64,000 bases of DNA from Thermoanaerobaculia bacterium (GTDB lineage Bacteria; Acidobacteriota; Thermoanaerobaculia; Gp7-AA8). Each line of letters opens with the position of its first letter. The first letter of the stretch is position 1. The translations under genes were made by a program, and so were the position numbers. Below, piece by piece: positions 4,798-26,754 of the stretch. The stretch is taken from positions 124,001 through 188,000 of the forward strand of contig JADGNZ010000004.1 in NCBI GenBank assembly GCA_017883205.1. The letters are read 5' to 3'. The notes below the pieces were generated by a model. That model ran no database searches. It had not been told where the DNA came from and worked only from the letters and a program-made list of their open reading frames with translations.

Positions 4798-4799
4798 AT

Positions 4800-9071: not shown

Positions 9072-9082
9072 AGACTGCCGGG

Positions 9083-10364: not shown

Positions 10365-10371
10365 AAAGGCT

Positions 10372-10438
10372 TTTCACGCGGAGGCGCGGAGAGCACGGAG
10401 AAAAACCCCTCCGCGTTTCTCCGCGTCTCCGCGTGAAA
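10372..10438. repeat. Intergenic hairpin repeat, CACGCGGAG type
   Basis: TTTCACGCGGAGGCGCGGAG faces CTCCGCGTCTCCGCGTGAAA, of the same family as 2011-2081, just after the small basic protein gene. Likely terminator. Confidence 0.8.
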
Positions 10439-10465
10439 CGCTTCTAAAGCCGTACACTGATACCC

Positions 10466-11071
10466 GTGACGAACCGCATCCTCCTCACACTCTTCGCCGC
10501 GTTCTTCGTCTGGTCGCTCATCCATCCGCACGATTACTTCACCTGGTTCCTCGAAGTCTTTCCGGCAATCATCGGCATCGCGCTCGTCATCGCGATGCGA
10601 AACCGGTTTCCGCTCACGCCGCTGCTCCTCACCCTGCTGACGATTCACGCCATCATCCTCATGGTCGGCGGGCACTACACGTACGCCGAGGTGCCGCTGG
10701 GATTCTGGATACGCGACGCGTTGCACATGGGGCGCAACGACTACGACCGCATCGGCCACTTCGCGCAGGGCTTCGTGCCGGCGATTGCCGCACGCGAGAT
10801 TCTCATCCGCCGCGATGTCGTTCGCAGCCGCGGCTGGCGCTACTACATCATCGTGTCGATCTGTCTCGCCATCAGCGCCGCCTACGAGTTGCTGGAGTGG
10901 CGTGTCAGCGTCGCTACCGGCAGCGCCGGTGATTCCTTCCTCGGCACCCAAGGCGACGTCTGGGACACGCAGGAGGACATGGCCACCGCGCTCGTCGGCG
11001 CGCTCATGGCGCCTTTGGTTTTGGGCTGGTTGCACGATCGTCAACTGGCGGCCCGGCAACTGGTGCCTTAA
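10466..11071 (+). CDS. DUF2238 (YjdF-like) membrane protein
   Basis: 201 residues with five or six membrane segments. It has the family features GHYTYAEVPLG, NDYDRIGHFAQGFVPA and YELLEWRVS, and the C-terminal block GDVWDTQEDMATALVGA. Acidic and His residues inside the membrane region suggest metal or proton handling, but the family function is not established. It begins with GTG at 10466. Its last 68 bases overlap the convergent membrane gene ending at 11004, and both reading frames look genuine. Confidence 0.88.
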   Translation: MTNRILLTLFAAFFVWSLIHPHDYFTWFLEVFPAIIGIALVIAMRNRFPLTPLLLTLLTIHAIILMVGGHYTYAEVPLGFWIRDALHMGRNDYDRIGHFAQGFVPAIAAREILIRRDVVRSRGWRYYIIVSICLAISAAYELLEWRVSVATGSAGDSFLGTQGDVWDTQEDMATALVGALMAPLVLGWLHDRQLAARQLVP

Positions 11072-11471
11072 CTGGTTCCGCAAGCGGCGTCGCAACTGTT
11101 GTCGCCGGCACCCGATCGCGAACGCCGCGAAAATCGGTGAGCGCCCAGAGCACCAGCATCAGCAGTCCGATCATCCAGTAGAAACGTGGCGAGGTGACGC
11201 CGCTGGTGAAGTTGCCGAACCACGGAGCCGCAATCAGACAAGCGATCAACAGCAGCTCCACGAATCCGTGCAGAGCGAGTCCGACGATCTTGACTATGCC
11301 GAGCGGCGAACGCGTCACGAGCGCCATCGCGAATAGCAGGCCGCCGAAGATGTACGCCCACGTCGCCTTCACACCTCCGAAGCCGGCGACCGACGGCCCG
11401 ATGATCAGCAGGATGGCCAGGGCGTAATCGAGGATGCCGTGCGATACCGCTCCGATGCTGCGATGAATCAT
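11004..11471 (-). CDS. SPW-repeat-like membrane protein
   Basis: 155 residues with four predicted helices; HGILDYALAILLIIGP and the paired-helix arrangement recall SPW-repeat proteins. The last 35 residues are Pro/Ala-rich and soluble. The ATG overlaps the stop of the upstream hydrolase gene by four bases (ATGA), so the two are translationally coupled. The coupling suggests a joint role at the membrane, perhaps in lipid metabolism given the hydrolase family; this is inference. Confidence 0.75.
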   Translation of the reverse strand: MIHRSIGAVSHGILDYALAILLIIGPSVAGFGGVKATWAYIFGGLLFAMALVTRSPLGIVKIVGLALHGFVELLLIACLIAAPWFGNFTSGVTSPRFYWMIGLLMLVLWALTDFRGVRDRVPATTVATPLAEPVKAPVAGPPVDDRATSPKPKAP

Positions 11472-12505
11472 GGCAGGTCGCGTCCTTCTCCCTGGCCGAG
11501 TACGAGAAACGGCGGATTGCCGTTCGCGGCCAGCGCGTCATTCAGATCGTGAATCGGATCGTACTCGCCATCGTCGCCGAGTGCGAATGTCCCGAAGTGA
11601 ACCGCCACGCTCGTCTGCGCGCCGAGGGCGAAGTGGGCGTCGACCGCCTGCGCGGGATCGATGTGCGCCGGTTGCATGAACCAGCGCGGCATGTACGATC
11701 CGATCGGCAGCAAGGCGGCGCGGATGGGAGAGAAGCGTTGGCCGATCTCCGCGAAGTGATTGCCCCATCCGGTGTCGCCGGCGAAGTAAACGTGCCCCGA
11801 CGGAGCGCTGATCACGAAGCCGCTCCAGAGATTGCGATTGCGGTCGCTGATTGCGCGCGCCGAGAAGTGCCGCGCCGGAACGACGGTCGTCTTGATGCCG
11901 CCTGTGTGATGCCCCGTCTCCCACCAATCGAGATCGCTCGCGCCAGTGACGCCATGCTTTCGCAGCAGCGCAGAGTTGCCGAGCGGCGTAACGATGGCCG
12001 GCCGGTGCCGCTCCTGCAGCGCGCGCAAAGTAGCCACGTCCATGTGGTCGTAGTGGTTGTGGCTGACGAGCACGAGATCGATCGGCGGCAGATCCTCGAA
12101 TCGGATCCCCGGCGCCCGATGCCGCTTCGGCCCCGCGAACGAAACAGGCGAGACGCGCTCCGACCAGACGGGATCGGTGAGGATGTTGACGTCATCGATC
12201 TGGATGAGCGTGGTCGAGTGATTGATGAAGGTGATACGCAGCCGCCCATCGCCAACCCGCTCCGGCGGCCGCGGTCCATACGACGCCTCCGGATGCTCCG
12301 GCCACGCCCCCCGCGCCCGATTCGCCATCCACCGGAGAAACGACCGCTCGGACTGCCAGCCATCCTCGCGATTACGAAACCGCTCGCCATCGAAGTGATC
12401 GGTGACCGCGCCACGCCATCGCGGCGACGCGAAGAAGATCCGATCGATCGCTACTGCCCCGAGCGCAGACCCAATCGCGATCGCCGCCTTCGTAGTGCCC
12501 CGCAC
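11468..12505 (-). CDS. Metallo-beta-lactamase-fold hydrolase, NAPE-PLD-like
   Basis: 345 residues if started at GTG 12505. It has the dinuclear metal motif SHNHYDHMD, a later His (PARHFSAR), FAGDTGWGNHF with the bridging Asp, and a C-terminal VAVHFGTF His. This pattern and the N-terminal SPRWRG...RWMANRARGAWPEH block fit the N-acyl-phosphatidylethanolamine phospholipase D / UlaG-like group, which cleaves phosphodiester or ester bonds in lipids or sugars. The reading frame runs on upstream into the inverted repeat at 12559-12765, so the longer start is rejected. First gene of a two-gene operon with the membrane protein at 11004. Confidence 0.88.
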   Translation of the reverse strand: MRGTTKAAIAIGSALGAVAIDRIFFASPRWRGAVTDHFDGERFRNREDGWQSERSFLRWMANRARGAWPEHPEASYGPRPPERVGDGRLRITFINHSTTLIQIDDVNILTDPVWSERVSPVSFAGPKRHRAPGIRFEDLPPIDLVLVSHNHYDHMDVATLRALQERHRPAIVTPLGNSALLRKHGVTGASDLDWWETGHHTGGIKTTVVPARHFSARAISDRNRNLWSGFVISAPSGHVYFAGDTGWGNHFAEIGQRFSPIRAALLPIGSYMPRWFMQPAHIDPAQAVDAHFALGAQTSVAVHFGTFALGDDGEYDPIHDLNDALAANGNPPFLVLGQGEGRDLP

Positions 12506-12558
12506 CGGCGTATTCCAACACAAGTGCGGCCAGCCATCAGAGCCACACTCACCATTAG

Positions 12559-12765
12559 TGTCATCCTGAGACAGCCGGAGCCGCCATCGGTGCTCGATCG
12601 ATTTGCGCAGCGTGTTGTGGCGGCGCAGGACGGCGAAGGATCTCAAGTTGCCGTGCACATGGCTTGTGCGTCGTAATTTGAGATCCTTCGCCGTCCTACG
12701 CCGCCGGCACATTCGGCGCGAGCGCATCGATTCGCGCGGGCGGCTCCGGCTGTCTCAGGATGACA
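12559..12765. repeat. Long nested inverted repeat, TCATCCTGAGA type
   Basis: The outer arms (12559-12583 with 12741-12765) are perfect over 25 bp, starting TGTCATCCTGAGACAGCC. Inner arms near 12620-12650 and 12677-12704 contain GGACGGCGAAGGATCTCAA and its complement. The whole could fold into a cruciform. It fills most of the gap between the hydrolase start and the gene at 12836. Confidence 0.88.
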
Positions 12766-12811
12766 CGATTGGTGACACGCGGATGGATGGAGACGACCCT
12801 GAACCTCCCGC

Positions 12812-12831
12812 CTCGTGACCGAGGTCACGAG
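12812..12831 (+). promoter_or_regulatory. Perfect palindromic Crp/Fnr-like operator
   Basis: CTCGTGACC-GA-GGTCACGAG has perfect nine-base arms and contains GTGA-N6-TCAC. It ends four bases before the ATG at 12836, a position suited to repression. Confidence 0.6.
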
Positions 12832-12835
12832 CGTC

Positions 12836-13456
12836 ATGCAACATCCGCCGAATACTCCGGCAATGCAAAAGAAACGCGTCGTCCTCGCGACTGCGGTCGT
12901 CCTCGTGGCCGTGCTCGCACTCGCATCGACGCCGAAAGGCATGGCCCCGCTGCCGGCGCAGTATCTTCACGCGGGCACCTTCCACTCGCCGGACGGCTGG
13001 TTCGAGATCCACGTGCCGATGACCTGGGAGTGGTTCGAGATGCGCGCGTTCGATGAGAAGGCCGACCCACGCTGGCCCGATGCAATCAATCACACCGTCG
13101 CATGGCTCGCTCGCGATCCCAAAACGTTCGACGATCTGGTCGTGATGGAATCGTACAGGCCGGGCGGGGACATCATCACAGAGAGCTTTGCCAGGAGCTT
13201 CGAGAGCAGCACACGAAAGGCCGTGGAGCCTGAAACGATGTCCGATTACTCATCGGAACTGCTCACGATCTCCGGCGAGCGGTCGCTGCACTACCGGTAC
13301 AAGCTCGTGAAGAAGAATCGCCCTCCGCTCTATCGCTTCGGCTACATCACCGGGATGGAGCACAAGCTGACGCTGTCAACCTCGGACGACAAGCCCGAAG
13401 AGCCGAAGCGGCTCTTCCAAAGCGTGGTCTCCATCCGCTGGCTGAAAGAGCCGTGA
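12836..13456 (+). CDS. Secreted or membrane-anchored protein, PsbP-like features
   Basis: 206 residues. A hydrophobic segment (KKRVVLATAVVLVAVLALAS) near the N-terminus is a signal or anchor. The rest is a single soluble domain that begins FHSPDGWFEIHVPMTWEW, like PsbP/Mog1-fold proteins in which a short lipid-exposed beta domain follows a signal, and ends with FQSVVSIRWL. No catalytic motif is seen. Starts at 12836 or 12863 are both possible; neither has a good ribosome-binding site. A perfect palindrome sits directly before it. Function unknown. Confidence 0.75.
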   Translation: MQHPPNTPAMQKKRVVLATAVVLVAVLALASTPKGMAPLPAQYLHAGTFHSPDGWFEIHVPMTWEWFEMRAFDEKADPRWPDAINHTVAWLARDPKTFDDLVVMESYRPGGDIITESFARSFESSTRKAVEPETMSDYSSELLTISGERSLHYRYKLVKKNRPPLYRFGYITGMEHKLTLSTSDDKPEEPKRLFQSVVSIRWLKEP

Positions 13457-13461
13457 AAACC

Positions 13462-13532
13462 GCTCACGCGAAGACGCGAAGCCGCGAAGGGGGGGTCCGT
13501 TCTTCTTCGCGTCTTCGCGTCTTCGCGTGAGC
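13462..13532. repeat. Intergenic hairpin repeat, CACGCGAAGACGCGAAG type
   Basis: GCTCACGCGAAGACGCGAAG (13462-13481) faces its exact complement at 13513-13532, directly after the gene ending at 13456. Probable terminator of the same repeat class as 2011 and 10372. Confidence 0.8.
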
Positions 13533-13668
13533 GCCTCTCTCTAGGTTCGCGAAGCGGCGCGCCTGACCCGTCGCCGATCCCTCGTTGACGCGCGCGGGAC
13601 ACACGCACTATCCTGTCCATCCTCGCTGAAATAGCGAGGAAACACAGCTCGTTGAGACGATCCCAAGC

Positions 13669-13744
13669 AGGCGCTTAGCTCAGTTGGTAGAGCATCACCT
13701 TCACACGGTGGGGGTCAGCGGTTCGAGTCCGCTAGCGCCTACCA
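13669..13744 (+). tRNA. trnV: tRNA-Val (anticodon CAC)
   Basis: All arms fold: acceptor AGGCGCT with AGCGCCT, D-arm AGCTCAGTTGGTAGAGC, anticodon stem TCACC/GGTGG with loop TTCACAC (anticodon CAC), and T-arm AGCGG-TTCGAGT-CCGCT. Discriminator A and CCA are encoded. A small hairpin (CCTCGCT-GAAAT-AGCGAGG, 13621-13639) lies upstream. The lanthipeptide cluster follows, but no duplicated tRNA end was found to suggest integration here. Confidence 0.96.
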
Positions 13745-13798
13745 AAACGCAAACTCCTGAAAAGCCCGAGGTTCCGCGCCTAGGGCTTTTCTGCGTTT
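13745..13798 (+). terminator. Terminator after tRNA-Val
   Basis: AAACGCA pairs with TGCGTTT and GAAAAGCCC with GGGCTTTTC in one extended stem right after the CCA end. The 630 bases from here to the lanthipeptide precursor hold no convincing gene on either strand, only the promoter noted at 14345. Confidence 0.75.
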
Positions 13799-14344: not shown

Positions 14345-14373
14345 TTGACAGTCGGAAGGAAGCATGCTTTTAT
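14345..14373 (+). promoter_or_regulatory. Predicted sigma-70-type promoter of the lanthipeptide operon
   Basis: TTGACA, a 17-base spacer and TTTTAT (four of six matches to TATAAT) lie 58 bases before the precursor ATG. A GGGAAAGGA ribosome-binding site precedes the ATG. Confidence 0.5.
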
Positions 14374-14430
14374 ACGCTGCTCCCAACTGGAGACCAAAGA
14401 CTCCAAAATCCAAGGGAAAGGAAAACTTGA

Positions 14431-14601
14431 ATGAAAGCTAAGTCCAAACTTGCCCCGAAACTGTCGCTTCATCGTGAAACCATCAAGCGCCTCACAGTCG
14501 AAGATCTCCGTGCGGTCCGCGGCGGACTGGGACTGATGGGCTGCGGCGAGACCGAATGCAAGAGCGACAAGCTCTGCACGGCCGTCACTCAGGCGCCCTG
14601 A
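14431..14601 (+). CDS. lanA: Class I lanthipeptide precursor peptide
   Basis: 56 residues. The leader contains KLSLHRETIKRLTVEDLRAV and ends in a double-Gly site (G31-G32), the pattern of class I lanthipeptide leaders (KLxLxKETIxxL...GG) processed by C39 peptidases. The predicted core is the 24 residues after GG, LGLMGCGETECKSDKLCTAV plus four more. It has Cys 38, 43 and 49 as ring partners and Thr 41, Ser 45, Thr 50 and Thr 54 as dehydration sites, so up to three thioether rings are possible. The gene is followed by a strong hairpin and then lanC, lanB and a peptidase-containing exporter. Product activity, antibiotic or signal, is not known. Confidence 0.9.
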   Translation: MKAKSKLAPKLSLHRETIKRLTVEDLRAVRGGLGLMGCGETECKSDKLCTAVTQAP

Positions 14602-14623
14602 TTTTTCGGCTTTCGGTGACTGG

Positions 14624-14650
14624 AAACGGCGGAGGACGACTCCGCCGTTT
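14624..14650 (+). terminator. Attenuating terminator between precursor and lanC
   Basis: AAACGGCGGAG-GACGA-CTCCGCCGTTT: an 11-bp perfect stem, 5-base loop and T-rich tail (CTTTCTTC). Partial read-through would make precursor mRNA more abundant than enzyme mRNA. Confidence 0.85.
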
Positions 14651-14674
14651 CTTTCTTCAATCAAATGCCAACGG

Positions 14675-15934
14675 ATGGTGACGAGGCCGGATTGTAAGTG
14701 GATTCCGTTATTGGAGGGCGCTGCGAACGCGAGAGCGGTCGCTATCAGCGACTCCATCGTCCGCGAGCTGCGGAACGTCTCGCGCTCGTGGGCTCCACAG
14801 GGTGCGAGCCGCAGCGAACAGGCGGTCAGCGATCTTTCTCTGGCTTGGGGGGCGGCGGGACGTCTTGCAGCGTTTGCTTACTGCGCACCCGGCCGGACAC
14901 GCGCGGCGATTCTCGAAAAGCACGCTGACAAACTTTCAAGCGGTCTCGCCCGAGTACCGTTGCCTTCGACACTGTTTCGCGGCTTCTGGGGAATCGGATG
15001 GGCGTATGCGCACATGCGGACCACCGGAATCTGGGATGCTCTTGATTCTGACGACCTGGATGATGCAATTCAGCCCAGCCTGGAGTGGATGAGCGACCAG
15101 CACGCATACGATCTGATGCGCGGGCTCGTGGGACTGGGGGTCTATGCTCTCGAAAGTCCGTCGAAGTCGAGAGCACGCAAGATTCTACGGTCTGTGGTTT
15201 CGGCCCTCGGGGCTGTCTGCACCTGGTCTGATCAGGGAGTCTTCTGGCCAACATCTCCCGAAGCGCTCGAAGCGGCCGAGCGGCGCACATGGCCGAGAGG
15301 GCGCACGGACCTCGGAATGGCCCATGGTTCTGCCGGTGTGATCGCCTTTCTCGCGGCGGTTGCGCACAGAGAACGCTCGCAGGCCACCGTTCGTCTCCTG
15401 GAAGGTGCCGTTTCCTGGCTTCTTGCACAGTCGCTGGGCCCGGGTCGAGGATCGTTGTTTTCTGCGTATGTTGATCAGGGCACGCAATCGTCGGAAACGC
15501 GGCTGGCCTGGTGCGTGGGCGACCTCGGGATCTCGGTTGCGTTGGCGCTGGCGGCCCGTTCTCTCCACCGGGAAGACTGGCGCGAGGAAGCTCTGCGCAT
15601 CGCACTTCATTCCGCGAACCGGCCGATCGGGGACGCCGTGAACGACACGTCGTTGTGTCATGGGAGCGCGGGGATCGCACATCTGTTCAGCCGCCTGTAT
15701 CAGTACCTCGGGCATTCCACTCTCCGTGAGGCAGCTGTGCGGTGGTACGAGCGTTGTCTCGCCGCCGAGACTCCGGGGCGATTTCTTGGTTTCGGCGCAC
15801 CTCGTTACGCCGGCTCCCGCCGGCTCGATCCAGGCTTCCTGATGGGAGCCGCAGGCGTAGCTCTTGCCCTCAAGGCCGCGACCACCGAACATGCTCCCTC
15901 GTGGGATAGAGTGCTTCTCATCGCGACCACATGA
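14675..15934 (+). CDS. lanC: Lanthionine synthetase C-like cyclase (LanC)
   Basis: 419 residues of the LanC double-helix-barrel fold. The zinc ligands are visible as Cys280 (AWCVGDLG), Cys328 and His329 (LCHGSAG). An AHGSAG repeat near residue 216 and the FLMGAAGVALAL C-terminal block complete the pattern. It would catalyse addition of precursor Cys thiols to dehydrated Ser/Thr to form (methyl)lanthionine rings. The ATG at 14675 has only a weak ribosome-binding site, so expression may depend on read-through of the preceding hairpin. Its end overlaps lanB by four bases. In most class I clusters lanC follows lanB; here it precedes it. Confidence 0.95.
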   Translation: MVTRPDCKWIPLLEGAANARAVAISDSIVRELRNVSRSWAPQGASRSEQAVSDLSLAWGAAGRLAAFAYCAPGRTRAAILEKHADKLSSGLARVPLPSTLFRGFWGIGWAYAHMRTTGIWDALDSDDLDDAIQPSLEWMSDQHAYDLMRGLVGLGVYALESPSKSRARKILRSVVSALGAVCTWSDQGVFWPTSPEALEAAERRTWPRGRTDLGMAHGSAGVIAFLAAVAHRERSQATVRLLEGAVSWLLAQSLGPGRGSLFSAYVDQGTQSSETRLAWCVGDLGISVALALAARSLHREDWREEALRIALHSANRPIGDAVNDTSLCHGSAGIAHLFSRLYQYLGHSTLREAAVRWYERCLAAETPGRFLGFGAPRYAGSRRLDPGFLMGAAGVALALKAATTEHAPSWDRVLLIATT

Positions 15935-18900
15935 TGAAAACGATGCAGGACGAGCCAGGTTTTCACGCGTCGGGATTCTTCGTCCTGCGGACGCCCCTGC
16001 TGCCGTTCTCCGCGTTTTCGTCCGACGCCTCCCTGAGTCTCGAGCTGGCGGAAAGCCGGCTGGCCCGCGTGCTGGAGGATCCCGACGTCCAGTCGGCGCT
16101 CCGTCTGGCATCGCCGGATCTGATGATGGCTTCGGATGCAAAACGGGCCGGCTTCGCCAAGCCGGAGCGGCAGCGAGCATTGTTGCACGCGCTACAACGC
16201 TATGTGGCGAGGATGTCAGGACGGGCCACTCCGTTCGGGCTGTTCGCCGGCGTGTCCACCGGTACCTTTTCAGATCGCACTCGTCTCCATCTTCCGGAAC
16301 GCGACAAGTGGGTCCGCAGGTCTCATATCGACATGGGGTTTCTGGCCCAAATCATCGAGCAATATCTTCGACGTGACGAGGTCAGAAGCGCCATTCGCTT
16401 CCGTCCGAACCAGGATCTTTACCGTATCGACCGCCAGTGGCGATACGCAGAGTCATTCAACGAGAACACAGGCCGAACTTACCGGCTCGTCTCCCTGAAA
16501 GACAGTCCACACCTGAGCGCTGTATTGGAGAGCGCTCGCCAGGGCGGAACGAGGACGACGCTGGCACGGCGGGCAACGCGTGTACTGCCGGGTGTATCCC
16601 GGAGACAGGTCGAAGAATTCATCGATGAGTTGATCGAAGCGCAGGTTCTCGTGCCGGACATCAATGTGCTGGTGACCGGTGCAGACGCGACGAAACGCTT
16701 GATCGAGCAGTTGGAATCGACCGCTGTCACCGCACCACTCTCGCGAGCACTGACTATTGTGCGGGAAGCTCTGGATGAATCTGACCGCCGTCCGTGGGGA
16801 ATGCTTCGCGAGCCGGCCGCCGGCATCGTCGAGGTCTTGCAGGAGTTCGGTGCACCACCACGGCCCGCGGAGGTCGTTCAAGTGGATCTCTTCAAGCCGG
16901 CCGAGCTTTCTCTCGGAAAAAAGGTCCTGGGCGCGATCGCAGAGGGAATCCGCGTGCTGCACCGATTCGGACCGGCTGGGGCAGCCCGAACGCCGCAACT
17001 CCATGAGTTTCGAAGAGAATTCATCGAGCGATACGGTGATTCTGAGATTCCGCTTTCTGAGGCGCTCGACGACGACTCCGGCATTGGTTTCCCAGTCGGC
17101 TCTCATCGGCTGCGTGACGAGTCTCCTCTGCTGGCAGGCCTCGGCATCGGGCGCCGCAGCAGAGATGAGACGATCCAGTGGGGGGTTCGGGAAGCGGTGC
17201 TCTCCGGAAAACTGGGAGAAGCACTGGCGCAGCAAGCGCAAGAGGTTCGCATCGCCGACGAGGACCTGCGACAGATTCAGATTGAGGCTCCGCCTCTGCC
17301 TGATTCCTTTGCAGCGTTCGGTACGGTCGCCGCCGCGTCGGCTGACGCCATCGACCGCGGAGATTTCCAGGTGCTCCTTCGATCGGTAATCGGCCCCTCG
17401 GGGGTGACGTTCCTGGGCAGGTTCTGTTATGGGGACGAACAACTCGAACGGTGGGTCCGAGAGCACATCGCGGACGAAGAGAGTATGAAGCCCGAGGCCA
17501 TCTTCGCGGAGATTGTTCATGTTCCGCGAGGCCGCCTCGGCAACTTCCTTCGCAGGCCGATCCTGCGCCGCTATGAGCTTCCCTACCTCGGCGACGCAGC
17601 GGTTCTTCCCGCGGATCGGATCACAGTCGACGACCTTCTCGTGTCCGTGCGCGACGACCGTATTGTTTTGCTATCTCAGTCGCGGGGGCGCGAAGTGCTT
17701 CCCCGGCTCACCTCGGCACATCATTACAACGTCGACCGTGAGATGCCGATCTATCGTTTCCTCGCCTCGCTCCAGTCTCAAGGCACCGCCTCGCGACTGG
17801 GGTGGGACTGGGGACCGATGAAGTACACGGTACCCTATCTGCCGCGGGTGGTGGCCGGCCGTTGTGTTCTGATGAGACGCTGCTGGAATCTCAGGGCCGG
17901 GGAGCTGGAGCCGTTGCGGCGCACGAAAGATGCGTCGGCACTACGCGACATCGTTCAACGGATCCGTAAGCAGCGAGATCTTCCCCGTTACATCGTGGTC
18001 GAGGAGCGGGATAACGAGCTGCCCATCGATTTCGAGAATCCGCTGAGCGTCGAAGGCTTCGCGGAGTTGATGAAGAAGGGGCCGGAAGGTCCCGTTTACG
18101 AGCTGTTCCCAGGTCCCGACCAATTGTGTGTCACCGGCGAGGACGGACGCTTCGTGCACGAGATGTTCGTGCCATTCAGCCTCGACAAAGCGCCTGCGGC
18201 ACGCGAGGGGGAAATCAGGCTTTCGTCTCCTCGAAAAGTGTCGCGGGCGACGATGCACCGGCCGGGCAGTGAATGGCTCTATCTCAAGCTCTACACCGGT
18301 ACCGCCACGGCGGACCAGCTGCTCATCGAGCTCGTAGCTCCCCTCATCAAGTGGGCAAAGAACGCGCAGCTTCTGAATCGCTGGTTCTTCCTGCGCTATG
18401 ACGATCCTGATCATCACATTCGACTGCGGATCCGGGGAGATATAAGCGGGTTGTATGGTGCTCTTCGTGAGCGACTCCGGCGGGATCTGAGCAGTGACCG
18501 CTTCAAGACAGCAGTCTGGCGGGAGCAGTGGGACACGTATGTAGCCGAGACGGGGCGCTACGGCGGGCCGGAAGGACTTGCGATCAGCGAGGAGTTGTTT
18601 CAGATCGACAGCGAGACCGTCCTTGCGTTGCTCCCTGTGGCGTCTTCCGACGTTCGGTGGATTTTTGCCTATGCCGGTGTCGACCGGTTACTAGCCGCCC
18701 TCGGTATGTCTCATGAAGAGAGACTGGCCTGCGTAGAAGGTTTGAGAGAAGGATTCTTCCGCGAATTCGCGCTGGAGGCATCCGACCGTCAGCGGCTCGG
18801 AGCGCGATTCCGAGAGCATCGCCCTCTGCTGATGTCTCTACTTGAATGGCCCGTCAAATGGCCCGAGCCCTTTCGAAGGAAGGCGGCGATTTTCGAGCGG

Positions 18901-19149
18901 AACGGAGAGCGGATCCGCGTCTGTTCCGAACAACTGCGCGATCTCTCACGCCGTGGTCACCTCAGCGAGCCGTTTCGCGATTTGGCCGCAAGCTTCATTC
19001 ACCTCCACGTGAATCGCATGTTGCGGTCCGGCCAGCGCGAGCATGAGACGGTTCTGTATCATTTTCTCGCTCAATCGTATCGGTCATTGCTCGCGATACG
19101 GTCTTCGACGGAATCGAAGACGGGTCCCGAACAGGAACCCACGGCATGA
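15931..19149 (+). CDS. lanB: Class I lanthipeptide dehydratase, full length (LanB)
   Basis: 1072 residues, the usual size for an undivided LanB. The N-terminal glutamylation domain starts with FVLRTPLLPFS and has YVARMSGRATPFGLFAGVS near residue 90; this domain transfers glutamate from Glu-tRNA to precursor Ser/Thr. The C-terminal elimination domain (from about residue 775, GSEWLYLKLYTG) contains WFFLRYDDPDHHIRLRI with the conserved Arg and His. It yields dehydroalanine and dehydrobutyrine, which LanC then cyclises. Start and stop overlap lanC and the exporter by four bases each, indicating one translationally coupled operon. Confidence 0.95.
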   Translation: MMKTMQDEPGFHASGFFVLRTPLLPFSAFSSDASLSLELAESRLARVLEDPDVQSALRLASPDLMMASDAKRAGFAKPERQRALLHALQRYVARMSGRATPFGLFAGVSTGTFSDRTRLHLPERDKWVRRSHIDMGFLAQIIEQYLRRDEVRSAIRFRPNQDLYRIDRQWRYAESFNENTGRTYRLVSLKDSPHLSAVLESARQGGTRTTLARRATRVLPGVSRRQVEEFIDELIEAQVLVPDINVLVTGADATKRLIEQLESTAVTAPLSRALTIVREALDESDRRPWGMLREPAAGIVEVLQEFGAPPRPAEVVQVDLFKPAELSLGKKVLGAIAEGIRVLHRFGPAGAARTPQLHEFRREFIERYGDSEIPLSEALDDDSGIGFPVGSHRLRDESPLLAGLGIGRRSRDETIQWGVREAVLSGKLGEALAQQAQEVRIADEDLRQIQIEAPPLPDSFAAFGTVAAASADAIDRGDFQVLLRSVIGPSGVTFLGRFCYGDEQLERWVREHIADEESMKPEAIFAEIVHVPRGRLGNFLRRPILRRYELPYLGDAAVLPADRITVDDLLVSVRDDRIVLLSQSRGREVLPRLTSAHHYNVDREMPIYRFLASLQSQGTASRLGWDWGPMKYTVPYLPRVVAGRCVLMRRCWNLRAGELEPLRRTKDASALRDIVQRIRKQRDLPRYIVVEERDNELPIDFENPLSVEGFAELMKKGPEGPVYELFPGPDQLCVTGEDGRFVHEMFVPFSLDKAPAAREGEIRLSSPRKVSRATMHRPGSEWLYLKLYTGTATADQLLIELVAPLIKWAKNAQLLNRWFFLRYDDPDHHIRLRIRGDISGLYGALRERLRRDLSSDRFKTAVWREQWDTYVAETGRYGGPEGLAISEELFQIDSETVLALLPVASSDVRWIFAYAGVDRLLAALGMSHEERLACVEGLREGFFREFALEASDRQRLGARFREHRPLLMSLLEWPVKWPEPFRRKAAIFERNGERIRVCSEQLRDLSRRGHLSEPFRDLAASFIHLHVNRMLRSGQREHETVLYHFLAQSYRSLLAIRSSTESKTGPEQEPTA

Positions 19150-21368
19150 CCGTCTCTTCGGGCCCGACGCTCCCGACGGTTCCCGGCGAACGCGAGAGCC
19201 GCACGTCCCGGCGATGGTTCGGCGTTCGTGTTCCAGTGATTCGGCAGATGACGATCACCGATTGCGGCGCCGCATGCCTGGGAATGGTTCTGAGCTTTCA
19301 CGGTCGGAAGGTAAGGATGCACGAGCTTCGTACGGCAGTCGGGGCGGGCCGGGACGGTACGAGCGCTCTCTCCCTCATGGAAGCAGCCAGCTCCTACGGC
19401 CTTTCGGTGGACCCGGTGGGCATTGGCGCTCAGGATCTGATGGGGCTCGAAGAGCCTGCAATCCTCCACTGGCAATCCAATCACTATGTGGTCCTGGAAA
19501 GAATCGGGAGGAACGGCGCAGTGATCGTCGACCCAATGTTGGGACGTCGCCGCCTTACCCTCCAGGCATTCGAAGAAGGATTCAGCGGCATTGCTTTCCT
19601 GATTACACCTGGAACTTCATTCTCCGCTCAGACGCTGAAGCGGGCGCGGTGGTCGAGATATTGGAAAATCCTTCGTCGCGCCCACTCGGAATCAGTTCGA
19701 GTACTGCTTGGATCGATTGCGCTGCAACTGATCGGGCTTGCCGTTCCGGCTGCGACGGCACTCGTCATCGACAAAGTCATCCCCTCGGGCCAGCATAGTC
19801 TGCTCACGCTCGTCATACTGGGAGCGCTCTGTTTTGGAGTACTCCATCTGGCAGTGTCCTACTTCAGGGCATTCGCACTGCTGCGCTTGCAGACACTTCT
19901 GGATCGCGAAATGACCACCGGCTTCGTTTCGCACATACTTTCGCTTCCGTTCAGCTTCTTTCAGAATCGAACGCTCGGCGGGGTATTCGCGTTCCTCAAC
20001 AGCATCGTCATCATCCGCGACGTGCTTTCCACCCAGTTCGTTTCCATGGCCCTGGACGCAGCGATGGTCAGCGGCTATTTCCTGCTGTTATTGAAAATCC
20101 GGCCCGTATTTGCCGTGGTCGCGCTGGGTACCGGCCTCCTGCAAGCACTGACGGTGCTGCTCACGAAGGAGCGCATCCATGTCGCGACACAGGACCAGGT
20201 TCACAGCCAATCACGCGCGCAGGGTCTGATCATTGAAATTCTCCGCGGGATTGAGACGATCAAATCGGCCGGGCTCGAAACGACCACGTTCGACAACTGG
20301 CGCGCACTCCATTGGAAACAGGCCGAGATGACCATGAAGAGGGAATTGATCGGCGAGGGCGTCCGCATCCTGCTGGCCAGTCTGACGGCCGTGAGTCCGA
20401 TCGTATTCCTCGCGCTCGGCGCCGGCGCAGTACTCGACCGGCAATTGTCGCTTGGAGCCATGCTGGCTCTGATTGCGCTGGCGGCAGGGTTCCTTACCCC
20501 GTTGAGCTCTCTTCTGGGCAGTCTGAACAAGACGCAAGTCGTCGGAGCTCATCTCGACCGGATCGACGATGTTTACGAGGAGATTCCCGAGCGGACCAGC
20601 GGCGAGGAGATCAACGACTTCGACGGCCGGATCGACTTTCGTCAGGTCAGCTTTCGTTACGCTCCCAACAGCCCACTGGTTCTGCGAAATCTCTCGTTTT
20701 CGATCGAACGGAATTCCACCGTTGCTCTCGTCGGTCCTTCCGGCTCCGGAAAGTCGACTGTGGCCAAGTTGATCCTGGGACTGTACACACTCACGGAGGG
20801 ACAGATCTTCGTCGATGGACGGCCGATCGAGGAGATCGATCTAAGGAACTTTCGGAAGCACATAGGAGTTGTCACGCAGGCCATGTTCCTCTTCAACGAC
20901 ACGGTGACCAGGAACATCGCCTTCGACCAACCCGGCATGAGCCCGGATGTCATCGTGAGAGCAGCGGAAATGGCATCGATCCACGCCGACATCCTGGCCA
21001 TGCCTCTGGGATACGATACGGTCATCGGCGAAGGCGGCGGGGGTCTGAGCGGTGGACAGCGGCAGCGAATCTGCCTGGCCCGGGCTCTCGCGCGCCGCCC
21101 TCGTATGCTCCTGTTCGACGAGGCTACGAGCGAGCTTGATGTCCTCTCGGAGCGGGCAGTTCAATCAGCCCTTGATACTCTCGACGTGACGCGGATACTC
21201 ATCGCGCATCGCGTGAGCACGATCCAGTCGGCGGACCAGATCCTCGTCTTGAGCGGAGGGGAGATCATCGAGCGCGGAACACATGACGAACTGATGGCCG
21301 GGCGCGGGCTTTACAATGAGATGGTGAGTGGAAGCAGCGCGACGGTGGGAGTATCGCTTGCTCATTGA
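19146..21368 (+). CDS. Peptidase-containing ABC exporter (C39-TMD-NBD)
   Basis: 740 residues. The N-terminal C39 peptidase has Gln34, Cys40 (ITDCGAAC), His113 (SNHYVVL) and Asp129 (VDPMLGRR) and would cut the precursor after Gly-Gly. Six transmembrane helices follow (about 165-470). The nucleotide-binding domain has Walker A GPSGSGKST (530-538), signature LSGGQ (634-638), Walker B LLFDE (655-659) and a switch His (IAHRVS). It couples leader removal to export of the modified peptide. It overlaps lanB by four bases and the adaptor gene by eleven. Confidence 0.96.
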   Translation: MTVSSGPTLPTVPGERESRTSRRWFGVRVPVIRQMTITDCGAACLGMVLSFHGRKVRMHELRTAVGAGRDGTSALSLMEAASSYGLSVDPVGIGAQDLMGLEEPAILHWQSNHYVVLERIGRNGAVIVDPMLGRRRLTLQAFEEGFSGIAFLITPGTSFSAQTLKRARWSRYWKILRRAHSESVRVLLGSIALQLIGLAVPAATALVIDKVIPSGQHSLLTLVILGALCFGVLHLAVSYFRAFALLRLQTLLDREMTTGFVSHILSLPFSFFQNRTLGGVFAFLNSIVIIRDVLSTQFVSMALDAAMVSGYFLLLLKIRPVFAVVALGTGLLQALTVLLTKERIHVATQDQVHSQSRAQGLIIEILRGIETIKSAGLETTTFDNWRALHWKQAEMTMKRELIGEGVRILLASLTAVSPIVFLALGAGAVLDRQLSLGAMLALIALAAGFLTPLSSLLGSLNKTQVVGAHLDRIDDVYEEIPERTSGEEINDFDGRIDFRQVSFRYAPNSPLVLRNLSFSIERNSTVALVGPSGSGKSTVAKLILGLYTLTEGQIFVDGRPIEEIDLRNFRKHIGVVTQAMFLFNDTVTRNIAFDQPGMSPDVIVRAAEMASIHADILAMPLGYDTVIGEGGGGLSGGQRQRICLARALARRPRMLLFDEATSELDVLSERAVQSALDTLDVTRILIAHRVSTIQSADQILVLSGGEIIERGTHDELMAGRGLYNEMVSGSSATVGVSLAH

Positions 21369-22455
21369 CTCAAGCGATCTGCGACGCAAGGGATCGCCCC
21401 CTCTGCCGTTCTTTCTGGCCGTCGCCCTGGCGCTCGTCTTCACGCCCGGTTGTCACCCAGCGAAAGACGCGGCGGAGGAACGGCCTATCGCCTCCGTGGA
21501 AGGGGTGACGCGGACGGATCAGGTCCAGGCGGCAGGAACGGTCAAGCCGCAAGTCGGCGCCGAGGTGAAGGTCGGTCCGCGGATCTCCGGAACCCTGAAG
21601 CGACTGAATGCCCGCGTGGGGCAGGTCGTACAGGCTGGCGCCCTGCTGGCCGAGATCGAAAGCTCTGCGCTCGAGTCGACGCTTGCACAGGCCAAAGCGG
21701 ATCGCGAGGAAGCCGAATTGGCGCATCGCCTGGCGGAGGAGAGCTTCCAGCGCCTCTACGCGCTCGGCAGGAGCGGCCTGGTATCGAAGGAGACCGTGCG
21801 GGAAGCAGAACTGGCCGAACTGCGGGCCGCCGCAGCGCTGCGAAAGAGCCGCGCCGCCGAGGAGTCGGCCAGGATCGAGCTGTCCTATGCCACGATCCGG
21901 GCACCGACATCGGGAACGGTAGCATCGATTTCTACGCAGACGGGGGAGACGGTCGCTGCTAGTTTTGCCAGCCCGACGTTCGTTACCATCATTGACTTGG
22001 ACCGGCTGCAGGTCGTCGCGTTCGTGGACGAAGTCGATATCCAACGCATCAAGATTGGACAATCCGTCACCTTTACGGCCGACGCCGTCCCCGACAGGGA
22101 GTTTCATGGGGTGATCACGGCGATCAATCCAGCGGCCCGTGTGCGCGAAAACGTCGTCAGCTTCGAGGTCGTCACGACGATCGCAGACGATGCTGCCCGA
22201 GTCCTACGGCCGGAAATGTCTGTCTCGGTTACGATCGTCACCGGCAGCCCGCACCAGGTGCTCACTGTGCCTGCCGACGCAATCCAGCACAGCGGAAGCC
22301 GCGCATTCGTCGATGTTGTCCAATCCGGAGGCGGTTTTCGGAAGCAGTGGGTTGACGTTGGGCGCCAGGAGGCAGGCAGCGTCGAGATTCGAAACGGACT
22401 CGCCCTCGGCGAACGCGTGACGCGTATCCCGCGCGAACAGAAGGGGGAACATTGA
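21358..22455 (+). CDS. Periplasmic adaptor (MacA/HlyD-type membrane fusion protein)
   Basis: 365 residues from TTG 21358, which is preceded by GGTGGGAG six bases upstream; a GTG at 21328 is the alternative. A hydrophobic N-terminal segment ends in FTPGC, which may be a lipoprotein site or a membrane anchor. The biotinyl-lipoyl halves (VGPRISGTLKRLNARVGQVV and IRAPTSGTVASISTQTGETV) flank a coiled-coil hairpin rich in Ala and Glu. The beta-barrel and membrane-proximal domains follow. It would bridge the inner-membrane exporter to an outer-membrane channel, which is not encoded here. It may serve both the C39 exporter and the MacB-like complex. Confidence 0.92.
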   Translation: MLIDSSDLRRKGSPPLPFFLAVALALVFTPGCHPAKDAAEERPIASVEGVTRTDQVQAAGTVKPQVGAEVKVGPRISGTLKRLNARVGQVVQAGALLAEIESSALESTLAQAKADREEAELAHRLAEESFQRLYALGRSGLVSKETVREAELAELRAAAALRKSRAAEESARIELSYATIRAPTSGTVASISTQTGETVAASFASPTFVTIIDLDRLQVVAFVDEVDIQRIKIGQSVTFTADAVPDREFHGVITAINPAARVRENVVSFEVVTTIADDAARVLRPEMSVSVTIVTGSPHQVLTVPADAIQHSGSRAFVDVVQSGGGFRKQWVDVGRQEAGSVEIRNGLALGERVTRIPREQKGEH

Positions 22456-23126
22456 TCGAGCTCGAGGGAATCGAAAAAGTCTACGACTCGCCGGCGAGAC
22501 GCGTGCTTCAGCGGATCGACGTGCGCATCGAGTCTGGCGAGCACGTGGCGATTACAGGCGGCTCCGGAGCGGGAAAGAGCACGTTGATGAACATCATCGG
22601 CTGCCTGGACCGGCCGACGGCGGGACAGTACCGGCTCGATGGCGAGGAACTGGCGAGCCGCTCCGACTCCTATCGCAGCGGGGTCAGGAACCGCCGCATC
22701 GGATTCGTCTTCCAGCTTTTTCACCTCTTACCGCGGCTGACCGTCATGGAGAACGTGCTGCTTCCGGTCATGTACTCGAACACCTCGCTACGGGACGCTG
22801 AAACACGCGCCCGTGGGCTGCTGGCCAGAGTCGGCCTGGCCGATCGTGCGGCGGACCGGCCGAACATCCTTTCCGGCGGGCAACAGCAGCGGGTCGCTAT
22901 CGTGCGGGCTCTGATCAACGAGCCGGCTCTCATTTTGGCGGACGAGCCGACCGGAAATCTCGATGGAGCGGCCGCTGCCGGCGTGCTCGAGCTCTTCGAC
23001 ACGCTCGTGGGAGGAGGACAGACTCTCGTCCTGGTGACTCATGATCCCTCCGTCGCCGCACGCGCGTCCCGCGTCCTCGAAATTGCCGCTGGCGAGATCG
23101 TGAACGATACGCGGAGGCCGTCGTGA
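22452..23126 (+). CDS. MacB/LolD-type ABC transporter ATPase
   Basis: 224 residues. Walker [10 protein letters not shown] (36-44), Q-loop FVFQLF, signature LSGGQQQR (140-147), Walker [12 protein letters not shown] and switch His197 (VTHD) place it with ATPases of the MacB/LolD/FtsE group, where the ATPase and permease are separate chains. It starts with TTG at 22452 after AGGGGG, overlapping the adaptor stop. With the two permeases downstream it likely forms a mechanotransmission-type complex for self-immunity or export of the lanthipeptide. Confidence 0.95.
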
Positions 23127-24325
23127 GACTCATCCGCCTGGCGTTGCATGCCGCTCGCACGCTGCGTTCCCAACCGGTTATGACTTCCCTCGTGGTCCTG
23201 TGTGTTGCCGTGGGCGTCGCCGCCTTCGTCACCGTGCTCGCCATGTCCCGCGCAATGGAGAACCAGGTCCGCAAAATCATGGAGGGTTTCGGTCCCCGCT
23301 CCCTCATGGTGACGACCACCACAGCCAGCGGCGCCGGCGGCGTCCGGCCCTTCTGGACGCCGCCGCAGATCGACACCCTGCGTTCGGCGCTCGGCAACCG
23401 CGCGATCGTCTCCGTCTACAAGCTCAAGTCCGACGAGCCGATCAAAGCCGGATCCACGACTACGACGACCGCGGTGTATGCCGTTGATACCTGGTTGCCT
23501 GAGCTGGAAGATCGCGATTATCAGGAGGGGTCTCCCCTGTCCAGCGGCGACGACCGCCAGCTCGCGCGTGTGTGCGTACTGGGTACCAGTCTCGCGGGGA
23601 AGCTCTTCGGCGCGCAGGATCCGATCGGACAGACCGTGCTCATTCGCGATGCACGCTTCACCGTCAAAGGACTTGCCGCGAAGCGCGGCGTGAGTCCGCT
23701 CGGCCTGGACATGGACGACTTCGTCTGGATCCCGCTGATGACCGGCGTCAAGCGGCTCTTCCGGGACGACCAGTTGCGAGTCATCCGTCTGCGGACGGAG
23801 GTCGGGGTCGATCCCAAAAGCTTCTCATCGGACCTTTCAGCCCAATTGCGCGCTCTCCACCGGCTTGGCGCCGGCCAGCCTGACGATTTCAAGATCATTG
23901 CCTCGGTGCAAGCAGAGCAACGACACCGCGATGCCACTGCATCGGCGCGGCGCGCCGGTTGGATCCTCAGTCTCATCAGCCTTTCCCTGGGCGGCATCAT
24001 CCTGGCGAATACCCTTCTGTTGTCCGTCAATCAGCGGCGTGCCGAGTTCGCACTCAAACGGGCATTGGGTGCGAAGGCAAGCGGAGTGTTCCTAGAGCTC
24101 GTTCTCGAGTCGTTGTTGATCTGTGTTTCCGGCCTGATCGCGGGTGCTCTGCTCGGCGTCGCCGCTACCTGGATTCTGACGCGGTTCCAGCCCCATTATC
24201 CGGCCGCACTGTCCTGGGAAGCGTTCGGGTTCGCAGCCGCCGTGTCGTCCGTTCTCGGAATTGTCGCGGGGTGTCTGCCCGGACGAAGTGCCGTTCGTAT
24301 CGAGCCCGCCAGCGCTCTGCGGTAA
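23123..24325 (+). CDS. MacB-like ABC permease 1
   Basis: 400 residues: an N-terminal membrane helix (VMTSLVVLCVAVGVAAFVTV), a periplasmic MacB-type domain of about 200 residues and three C-terminal helices. The loop SVNQRRAEFALKRALGA is the conserved coupling element that contacts the ATPase. It starts with GTG at 23123, overlapping the ATPase stop by four bases. The permease is about the same length as its neighbour but diverged, suggesting a heterodimer. Confidence 0.92.
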   Translation: MRLIRLALHAARTLRSQPVMTSLVVLCVAVGVAAFVTVLAMSRAMENQVRKIMEGFGPRSLMVTTTTASGAGGVRPFWTPPQIDTLRSALGNRAIVSVYKLKSDEPIKAGSTTTTTAVYAVDTWLPELEDRDYQEGSPLSSGDDRQLARVCVLGTSLAGKLFGAQDPIGQTVLIRDARFTVKGLAAKRGVSPLGLDMDDFVWIPLMTGVKRLFRDDQLRVIRLRTEVGVDPKSFSSDLSAQLRALHRLGAGQPDDFKIIASVQAEQRHRDATASARRAGWILSLISLSLGGIILANTLLLSVNQRRAEFALKRALGAKASGVFLELVLESLLICVSGLIAGALLGVAATWILTRFQPHYPAALSWEAFGFAAAVSSVLGIVAGCLPGRSAVRIEPASALR

Positions 24326-24337
24326 CGGGCCGAAGCA

Positions 24338-25531
24338 ATGCACTCCCATCAGTTGCGCAAATTGTCGGTTCGCATCCTTCTGACGCTCGGATTCCGCTCC
24401 GTCATCGCCTGCGGCGTGCTCGGTGCGGGCACCGCGGGACTGATTACGAACGTTGCGGTAACGAGCGCCGCCAGGCAGCACGCCCAACTGTCATTCCAGC
24501 GCTACGGCGCACAATACGTTTACGTCCTGCCCGTGGTGATCCGCAAGAAGAATGCGAATCCGGCCATCACCGCTCCAGGGCTCTCGCCGCTTCATTTAAG
24601 GATCATGCAATCGATGCCCGACTGCCTCTGGGCAGGAATCGCGCAGCGGACCCTGACCGTGGCCAGTCTGTCGCAAAAAGTGGTGACGGCGGTAGCAGGC
24701 GTCGACCCAAGCTACTTCGACGTTCGCGGACTGGCTGCCACGGAAGGACGACTGCTCGATGCGGAAGACGACCGGGCCCTGGCCCGGATCGCCGTTCTCT
24801 CTTCGGCCACCGCCAGAGACCTGTTTTCCGACGAGTCCTCTCTTGGAAAGGTCGTGAGGATCGGCGGAGTTCCGTTCGTCATCGTCGGAGTGCTCGAGTC
24901 TCGAGGAACCGATCTCGAAGGGCACGAGGTCGACACGGTTGTCTTCGTCCCGCGAAAAACTGCGGCCGTGCGCCTCTTCGGATCGTCGCAGATCGACATG
25001 ATCATCGCGCGCGGTGGAGCGGACGAAAGCGCGTCATCGCTCGCGGCCCGAATCACGGAACAGATGCAAAACGACAGGCATCGCGGCCAGCGTGCCGTGT
25101 CTGTGAAGCTGCCCGACGCCGTCATGAAGATGAGCGAGCGCACGGCAGCCGTCTACAACAGCTGGACGCTCGGTTCGGCAGTGATCGGCATGATCGCCGG
25201 CGGCATCGGAATCGTAACGATCATGCTCATCACGGTGAAGGAGCGTGGCCCTGAAATCGCCGTTCGCAGAGCTCTCGGAGCCACCCGCAGCGCCATCCTT
25301 CGACAGTTCATCTTCGAGACTACATGTCTCGTCGCCGCGGGGATCGTGGCAGGCGTGCTCGCTGGTGTAACGCTCGGAATGGGGATCTCGTCGGTCGCGT
25401 ACGACGTCCACTCGTTTCCGTGGAAGATCCTCGGCTACGCGATCATTCCGACAGCCTTCGGGATTCTGGCAGGCCTGATCCCCAGCTGGATCGCTGCGCG
25501 ATTGAACATCGTGCGCGCGCTCGCGGGTTAG
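24338..25531 (+). CDS. MacB-like ABC permease 2
   Basis: 397 residues with the same layout as the preceding permease: one N-terminal helix, a periplasmic domain containing VVTAVAGVDPSYFDVRGL and three C-terminal helices. The coupling segment TVKERGPEIAVRRALGATRSA is typical of MacB/FtsX permeases. It lies 12 bases after the first permease and closes the operon. The two permeases plus ATPase and adaptor resemble MacAB-TolC complexes lacking the outer-membrane part. Confidence 0.92.
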   Translation: MHSHQLRKLSVRILLTLGFRSVIACGVLGAGTAGLITNVAVTSAARQHAQLSFQRYGAQYVYVLPVVIRKKNANPAITAPGLSPLHLRIMQSMPDCLWAGIAQRTLTVASLSQKVVTAVAGVDPSYFDVRGLAATEGRLLDAEDDRALARIAVLSSATARDLFSDESSLGKVVRIGGVPFVIVGVLESRGTDLEGHEVDTVVFVPRKTAAVRLFGSSQIDMIIARGGADESASSLAARITEQMQNDRHRGQRAVSVKLPDAVMKMSERTAAVYNSWTLGSAVIGMIAGGIGIVTIMLITVKERGPEIAVRRALGATRSAILRQFIFETTCLVAAGIVAGVLAGVTLGMGISSVAYDVHSFPWKILGYAIIPTAFGILAGLIPSWIAARLNIVRALAG

Positions 25532-25590
25532 ATCGCGATCGATCGAGAGCCCGGCTTGCCGCATACCGCCGCGCCGGGAGGGACAAGCTG

Positions 25591-26754
25591 TCAGTTGACG
25601 AGCATCAGGTTCAGCGGCTCGTCGGGCGAAACCTTCACCCGGGGCTCCCTTTCGATTGCGGCAAGCAGGAACGACATCTGGGTACTGTCTTCGGGATCAG
25701 CGCGCCGAACCAGCCGCTTGAAATTATCCGAGGATCGTTCGTAGTCGACCGAAGTCACCAGCTGATTTAAGAAATGGCTGCTGGCCGAGACCGGCGGGAG
25801 ACCCTTCAATCGCCGCAGATTCGTGAATCCGTAATCCGGAACGCCCACAGGCTGACGAGTCCACGCTTTCCCCCGAGGCGGCCGGAAGCTCAGTAGCTCG
25901 TCATTCTTCACTTTGCGCCAAAGCAATTCTCCAAGCCCCTGCAGAAGCTCTTCTTTCCAGGGAGCATCGATATCGACCTTGCGGCTCAGCTCCTCCCCCT
26001 CCGTTGGTCCACCGGACAGGCTCCCGATGAATTGGCGGGTATAGCGCCGCTGCTTCTCTCCGTATAGAAGCTCGTGGCGGAGCCACAAGAGCAGGAGCGG
26101 ACTCTTGCGCACGTCTTCCGCGGTGAAGCCAGGGAACTCGCCGGTGCAGTAGAAGGCAGTCAGCGTCGCGAAAAATTCGGGCGACTGCACCTCCAGCGAC
26201 GGATCGAATCGCCGGAATTCCGCGACGTTCGATTCGTGATAGCTGGTCGTCAGCCCGCGATTCATCATGGATGTCCCGATGTCGCAGATCGTATTGAGGT
26301 TGACGGTACTCAGATACCAGTAGTCGACTCCCACCGTCGCAGCGGCTTCCGTGAGAAGGTGACAGAAGACGAAGTCTTCAAAATTTTCCGCGGTGATCGG
26401 CGCACGGCCATATCCGAGATTCGGTGCTAAATGATGGATCGCGTGAAATGACCAGACGTGCAGATAGTCGTGTACGGCGAAGAGCAACTCGGTCACCAGG
26501 TTGTCGTTGACGTTGAGCTCACGCGCCGAACCGGCCGGACTCCGAAGGAAGTCGCTGAGTACCGAATGTCTCGGGACAAAGACCCGTGACGTGAACGGGT
26601 TGAATCCACCCATCGAGCCCTTCAGATAGTCGTTGTAGACCCAACGTTGATCGACTCCCCGGATGCAGATGCTGACCGCCGGATCTGCGAGGAACTGTCC
26701 AAGCAGCGGAATGTGTAGAAGCGACTCTCTGTGAAGTGTCTTTCGACGAGCCAA
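25591..26754 (-). CDS. Unrecognised His-rich helical protein beside the lanthipeptide cluster
   Basis: 387 residues, no family recognised, no signal peptide or clear membrane helix. A striking cluster lies at residues 89-108: Glu89, His95, His99 (HDYLH), His104, His107 and His108 (HAIHH). It is followed by Glu123, Glu126, His132 and Glu136 (CHLLTEA) and Asp144. Spacing on predicted helices would suit a di-metal, perhaps di-iron, helical-bundle enzyme. Translation starts with TTG at 26754 after GGAGGA. The gene is convergent with the lanthipeptide operon, 59 bases from its end. A tailoring enzyme for the peptide is possible but unproven. Confidence 0.7.
   Translation of the reverse strand: MARRKTLHRESLLHIPLLGQFLADPAVSICIRGVDQRWVYNDYLKGSMGGFNPFTSRVFVPRHSVLSDFLRSPAGSARELNVNDNLVTELLFAVHDYLHVWSFHAIHHLAPNLGYGRAPITAENFEDFVFCHLLTEAAATVGVDYWYLSTVNLNTICDIGTSMMNRGLTTSYHESNVAEFRRFDPSLEVQSPEFFATLTAFYCTGEFPGFTAEDVRKSPLLLLWLRHELLYGEKQRRYTRQFIGSLSGGPTEGEELSRKVDIDAPWKEELLQGLGELLWRKVKNDELLSFRPPRGKAWTRQPVGVPDYGFTNLRRLKGLPPVSASSHFLNQLVTSVDYERSSDNFKRLVRRADPEDSTQMSFLLAAIEREPRVKVSPDEPLNLMLVN

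Follow-up and report, generated by a model that had tools for sequence, protein, structure and literature searches.

LanFEG, the lanthipeptide immunity transporter, consists of one ATPase and two permeases. Class I lanthipeptide precursors with an LxLxKx5L leader, a GG cleavage site, and a C39 exporter have been described from Bacteroidetes, and pinensin is the isolated example in the excerpts of PMC7268733. According to the excerpts of PMC5985334, MacB-type pumps collect their substrate in the periplasm and drive it out through an outer-membrane duct. The excerpts that make up the literature consulted give no account of class I lanthipeptides crossing the outer membrane and of survival in double-membraned bacteria. 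We analyzed a 64,000-nucleotide stretch of a Thermoanaerobaculia genome (contig JADGNZ010000004.1), called the window below. This source bears out the first-pass annotation of the DNA, which had called the genome Acidobacteriota-like. The window shares its leader motif, GG cut site, LanB plus LanC, and C39 exporter with the excerpted PMC7268733 type, and differs from it in its Acidobacteriota host, its core, and a MacAB-type gene set within the operon. The leader/GG/C39 class I precursor type is already in print (excerpts of PMC7268733), so the biosynthetic half of the window operon adds a further case. The linked MacB-type branch is what sets the operon apart from the known class I type.

Pfam and NCBIfam domain searches define an eight-gene operon on the plus strand at positions 14431-25531. 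The first-pass annotation had described a class I lanthipeptide cluster with a precursor, lanC, lanB, a C39-ABC exporter, a MacA-like adaptor, an ATPase, and two permeases, and the same searches found all of them. The operon is a class I lanthipeptide cluster, and the biosynthetic assignment is strong. The features are as follows.

14431..14601, plus strand, lanA precursor, 56 aa (NF038153)
14622..14652, plus strand, hairpin of 13 bp followed by TTTCTTC, in the lanA-lanC interval (RNA fold)
14675..15934, plus strand, lanC cyclase (PF05147, 130.7 bits)
15931..19149, plus strand, lanB dehydratase, a single chain carrying the glutamylation and elimination domains (PF04738, 513.9 bits; PF14028, 203.9 bits)
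19146..21368, plus strand, lanT peptidase-containing ABC exporter (PF03412, 110.9 bits; PF00664, 87.2 bits; PF00005, 120.3 bits)
21328 (GTG start) or 21358 (TTG start)..22455, plus strand, macA-like periplasmic adaptor (PF16576, TIGR01730)
22452..23126, plus strand, MacB/LolD-type ATPase (PF00005, 116.7 bits)
23123..24325, plus strand, permease 1 with MacB periplasmic core and FtsX domain (PF12704, 97.0 bits; PF02687, 66.3 bits)
24338..25531, plus strand, permease 2 with MacB periplasmic core and FtsX domain (PF12704, 81.2 bits; PF02687, 53.7 bits)
25591-26754, minus strand, convergent ORF (no Pfam or NCBIfam match)

Coupling of all the genes by short overlaps or a small gap, as first proposed, holds from lanC onward but not between the precursor and lanC. 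The coordinates give 4-base overlaps at lanC/lanB, lanB/lanT, macA/ATPase, and ATPase/permease 1. The lanT/macA overlap is 41 bases with the GTG start or 11 bases with the TTG start, and a gap of 12 bases separates the two permease genes. The 73 bases between lanA and lanC contain a strong hairpin. RNA folding of the hairpin region (14580-14674) gave -39 kcal/mol with a z-score of -4.09, and 0 of 200 shuffles were equally stable. A simple terminator scan (8 sites versus 10.6 in shuffles) omits this hairpin and was disregarded. The hairpin might act as an attenuator or a partial terminator, or mark an mRNA end, and may cause the precursor to be made in excess over the enzymes. The operon lies inside the range 14345-26754 originally assigned to the cluster, but the end of that range reflects the convergent minus-strand ORF, which had been left undescribed. 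No family match to this ORF was found in Pfam, NCBIfam, or PADLOC, nor any match in the 99 other genomes among the 100 searched, and its single-sequence structure model was useless (mean pLDDT 34.6).

The precursor leader scores 32.1 bits with the NF038153 model ("class I lanthipeptide") against a cut-off of 22, and the window lanA is the one over-cut-off match of three in the genome. The leader motif is present in 1 of the 540 window ORFs of 35-150 aa. The precursor reads ...LTVEDLRAVRGG up to the cut and LGLMGCGETECKSDKLCTAVTQAP beyond it. The leader ends in GG after residue 32, leaving a 24-residue core with three Cys (positions 6, 11, and 17) and four Ser/Thr (positions 9, 13, 18, and 21). 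Cys6 has no Ser/Thr upstream within the core. The leader residues L(-12), D(-8), and L(-7) before Gly-Gly occupy the C39 recognition positions, and they fit the recognition rule in the excerpts of PMC8277102 with Asp replacing Glu. The leader also has Arg where the motif in the PMC7268733 excerpts has Lys.

Both LanB domains, PF04738 and PF14028, score over their cut-offs, so the glutamylation and elimination domains are both present, and the protein aligns with the solved LanB-type proteins 9g04 and 5ehk over most of its length. The window LanB is full-length, unlike the split pinensin LanB of the PMC7268733 excerpts. LanC is a separate protein that is over the PF05147 cut-off, and alignment with NisC shows that the zinc-ligand pattern is kept (C280, C328, and H329). 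The C39 domain of LanT keeps its catalytic pattern (C40, H113, and D129) and is fused to an ABC exporter, with a GG substrate encoded nearby. LanT residues 21-728, nearly the full length, align with the solved bacteriocin transporter 4ry2.

The remaining four genes encode a MacAB-type transporter. The adaptor is over the cut-off of TIGR01730 (179.6 bits) and matches solved MacA; its score with PRK11578 (MacA) is 125 bits, under the cut-off of 342, and we therefore call it MacA-like rather than MacA. The best NCBIfam match of the ATPase is the ATPase part of MacB (233 bits, under the cut-off of 966). A profile built from the permease 1 proteins of the window and of two related loci, L044 and L042, matches solved MacB. 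Like MacA-MacB-TolC and two-permease relatives such as LolCDE in the PMC5985334 excerpts, the set has a MacA-type adaptor, a MacB-type ATPase, and MacB-core/FtsX permeases. Unlike the systems in those excerpts, it has no adjacent TolC-type gene, its ATPase and permeases are separate, and it sits in a lanthipeptide operon. The first-pass annotation had spoken of a complete MacAB-type complex, and this description does not stand. Three separate genes encode the ATPase and the two permeases, which differ from each other, and the ATPase-permease fusion of MacB is absent. The window has no outer-membrane channel gene: 0 of the genome's 18 PF02321 stretches are located in it, and all 18 fall in nine ORFs on other contigs. 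The MacA-like gene is the sole adaptor gene in the operon.

The reading that we favor, with modest confidence and from the gene content, is a working operon, in an acidobacterium of Gram-negative type, in which the peptide, once modified by LanB and LanC, is trimmed and passed into the periplasm by LanT and then expelled by the MacAB-type set, so that export and self-protection would be achieved jointly. LanB would dehydrate Ser/Thr residues of the core, and LanC would close at most two forward thioether rings, the simplest pattern being Thr9-Cys11 and Ser13-Cys17. The predicted mass of the core with two waters lost is 2418.105. LanT would cleave after Gly-Gly while carrying the core over the inner membrane into the periplasm. 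The MacA-like protein, the ATPase, permease 1, and permease 2 would then pick up the mature peptide in the periplasm, a role assigned to them because MacB draws its substrates from that compartment (excerpts of PMC5985334). Exit would be via an outer-membrane channel encoded elsewhere, for which the nine ORFs are candidates. The pump would complete export and probably protect the producer simultaneously. Because a C39-LanT acts at the inner membrane and the operon's only adaptor gene is the MacA-like one, we regard a two-step relay as the simplest interpretation.

A census of neighboring genes was used to determine how rare the pairing is. The neighbors were read in 100 loci with 94 distinct LanB proteins, made up of 20 stretches around LanB or precursor places and 80 of at least 556 confirmed matches, using profiles built from the window and its relatives rather than from Pfam. 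After six duplicates were dropped, the main count covers 35 loci that have both LanB and a C39-LanT; the close Pseudoalteromonas loci L128, L129, L133, and L134 were kept. Among the matches listed, MacB-type permeases occur in 1 of the 35 (L044), an HlyD-type adaptor without a MacB-type permease in 24, and neither in 10. Actinomycetota or Bacillota account for six of the ten with neither (L058, L059, L065, L087, L098, and L111). Ten further loci from the window's class include two duplicates (L208 = L061 and L214 = L080), and 0 of the four that bear a LanT-type exporter has a MacB-type permease; one of these four, L211, is cut off where its contig ends. The total among the matches listed is one MacAB-type set in 39 other LanB plus LanT loci, or, counting the window, 2 of 40, with several contigs ending within a few kb. 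A C39 exporter and a MacAB-type set in one lanthipeptide operon is unusual, and the census upholds the first-pass claim to that effect. A literature search for lanthipeptide together with MacB, MacAB, HlyD, or Acidobacteriota returned no title naming the pairing within the terms and collection used, and the words lanthipeptide, RiPP, and bacteriocin are absent from PMC11245096, a paper on Acidobacteriota.

Two loci, L130 and L058, hint at other pairings. L130, from Pseudoalteromonas, was left uncounted; its LanT-like exporter is cut at the edge of the stretch, and the stretch has no adaptor match. Near its lanC and lanB, a MacB-like ATPase scores 270 bits and a single FtsX-type permease scores weakly at 58 bits; L130 may be a further, different pairing. 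The Bacteroidota loci L115 and L123 have 789-aa permease-like ORFs near LanB with weak scores (83 and 95 bits) and another layout. In the Modestobacter locus L058, counted with neither component, a partial MacB-like ATPase (70 bits) lies where the contig ends.

Within Acidobacteriota, the class I machinery is patchily distributed. PF04738 has matches in 47 of the 396 genomes sampled from the phylum (over the cut-off in 42), and the leader model was over its cut-off in 6 of the 396 and in 3 of 40 relatives; each of these counts includes the window's genome. At E 1e-30, the LanB profile matched 15 of 148 genomes of the window's class, its own included, and 5 of 41 genomes of the class of G119, the source of L044, with G119 included.

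The adaptor bears on the main alternative to the relay, which we consider unlikely. It holds that LanT exports alone with a borrowed adaptor, MacA or another, in the style of type I secretion, and that the ATPase and permeases serve immunity only as a Gram-negative counterpart of LanFEG. The window resembles LanFEG in having one ATPase and two permeases, the same subunit count, within a lanthipeptide operon; unlike LanFEG, its permeases are of the MacB/FtsX type and are accompanied by an adaptor. The usual partner of LanT is an HlyD-type adaptor without a MacB-type set, as in the 24 of 35 loci among the matches listed, and macA lies directly 3' of lanT in both the window and L044, an arrangement that would suit an adaptor borrowed by LanT. 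However, the adaptor is MacA-like, matches solved MacA, and has close relatives that adjoin ATPase and permease genes of like kind, which makes the pump, rather than LanT, its more likely partner.

L044 is the LanB locus of G119, an Acidobacteriota genome of a class other than the window's. Its leader and LanB are over cut-off, and LanC, LanT, and MacA domains were found. The window and L044 have the eight gene kinds in common, but in L044 the order is precursor, LanC, permease 1, LanB, LanT, MacA, ATPase, and permease 2. The transporter genes appear to go with lanABCT because L044 keeps equal content in a different order. By eye, the motifs C-G-x-T and C-x-[ST]-D-x-x-C are common to the two cores. 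The vicinity of L044 also contains two JmjC/cupin ORFs and one PhyH ORF.

That the MacAB-type genes form a general efflux operon, beside the lan genes by chance and unconnected with the peptide, is in our estimate improbable. The MacB family is very common among Acidobacteriota, and permease 1 has matches at E 1e-20 or better in 357 of 396 genomes. Its nearest outside relatives lie in operons without lan genes. The best ten genomes besides the window's (E 9e-73 to 4e-82, 34-39% identity; the next at 3.5e-49) have MacA, ATPase, and permease genes at the loci concerned (L166-L175), in which no ORF matches the window precursor, LanB, or LanC and none has LanT as its best match. The efflux operons L167, L168, L171, and L173 resemble the window in having MacA, ATPase, and two permeases consecutively, with permease 1 at 36-38% identity; unlike the window, they have a gene for a PF02321 outer-membrane efflux protein upstream and are without lan genes. 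The upstream ORF of L175 was tested and is not an outer-membrane efflux protein. These ten related loci would suit a chance neighbor, but the overlapping frames from lanC through permease 1 argue against it, as does L044, in which permease 1 lies between lanC and lanB and the remainder follows lanT. Permease 1 proteins linked to lan genes, from three genomes, also cluster together.

In the careful permease tree, the permease 1 proteins of the window, L044, and L042 form one clade (99/99) beside the operons of the L166-L175 type. The permease 2 proteins of the same loci form a clade at 94/91 that is not starred. Without the L042 row, the window and L044 permease 1 group at 91/96, not starred, and without the L044 row, the window and L042 group at 99/97. 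The careful tree omits a very long third L042 permease and the L152, L153, L169, L170, and L174 rows; a quick tree including them places the three permease 1 proteins together (99) and the permease 2 proteins together (89). Branches to the permease rows are long, which the trees flag with a warning. In the quick ATPase and adaptor trees, the three loci are not one clade, yet such a clade is not rejected (p-AU 0.45 and 0.50). The LanT tree places the window and L044 without resolution. A sister relationship of the window and L044 LanB was not taken as established: support was 96 in a quick tree of 76 rows and only 38/83 in a careful tree of 33 rows.

L042 is the LanB locus of G286, from the same class as the window, and it is broken. 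In tblastn searches, only residues 48-643 of the window LanB are matched (40% identity), and LanC is reduced to a 32-residue tail (residues 386-417, 56%, E 2.8e-5). Comparison with the L044 LanC also recovers the tail only (E 1.8e-6). LanT was not found at L042 by tblastn, the sole LanT-like match being the ATPase gene itself, and the leader motif is in no ORF of the locus. All four pump genes are full length and retain their domains, at 46% for the adaptor, 57% for the ATPase, and 31% for either permease. A pump that has outlasted the loss of most of lanC, the lanB end, and lanT fits a protective role in this one case. The retention of the pump without LanT is also a point for the immunity-only alternative.

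L042 is likewise an example of such a cluster decaying, and the window core is short, with one Cys that has no forward partner. That the window operon is itself silent or decayed and makes no product nevertheless seems to us the least probable reading; all eight of its frames are open, overlaps between frames are tight, and the LanC and C39 patterns are kept. Returning to the relay, we tentatively suggest that a dedicated, lanthipeptide-linked MacB branch in Acidobacteriota might form its second stage as a heterodimeric pump, acting as both outer-membrane exporter and immunity system, and might persist as a resistance module once the biosynthetic genes are lost. Two distant genomes with equal gene kinds in a different order, together with a broken locus that keeps its pump, make a testable case. 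The only LanC and C39 matches of G286 belong to a class II cluster, situated on a different contig, that encodes a DUF4135-LanC protein, an HlyD-type adaptor, and a C39 exporter, and the L042 pump could serve this separate cluster.

One further ORF adjoins the lanthipeptide operon in the window:

25591-26754, minus strand: convergent ORF of 387 aa.

No family match to this ORF was found in Pfam, NCBIfam, or PADLOC, and the other 99 of the 100 relatives searched gave no match either. It contains an HDYLHVW...HAIHHL stretch, seen by eye, that on the same visual inspection could bind metal.

Two loci pair lanthipeptide genes with pump components:

L042 (genome G286, same class as the window), 5804-13796: broken class I lanthipeptide locus whose MacAB-type pump genes are full length.
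L130 (Pseudoalteromonas), 2-9967: locus with transporter genes upstream of lanC/lanB.

L042 also carries a third permease of very divergent sequence. The upstream genes in L130 encode a LanT-like exporter (cut), a MacB-like ATPase, and a single FtsX-type permease, which may be a pairing of another kind than that in the window.

Precursors or precursor-like ORFs lie at four other loci:

L212 (a single Thermoanaerobaculia genome), 4523-5517: three consecutive precursors.
L058 (Modestobacter), 3492-3671, and L059, 8271-8492: precursors from actinomycetes, their leaders of the same type.
L063, 9520-9684 and 13289-13501, strand opposite to LanB: precursor-like ORFs bearing the leader motif.

The three L212 precursors have near-identical leaders and differing Cys-rich cores, and are adjoined by LanT and an HlyD-type adaptor. 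In L058 and L059 the core holds a single Cys and is rich in His/Asp/Arg or in Lys/Asp, an odd composition for lanthipeptides. The L063 ORFs have one Cys or none and many Thr/Ser.

The counterpart cluster in another Acidobacteriota class is flanked by possible tailoring genes:

L044, 524-3007 and 16713-17717: two JmjC/cupin-like ORFs and one PhyH-like ORF.

These are possible hydroxylases of the cluster's peptide.
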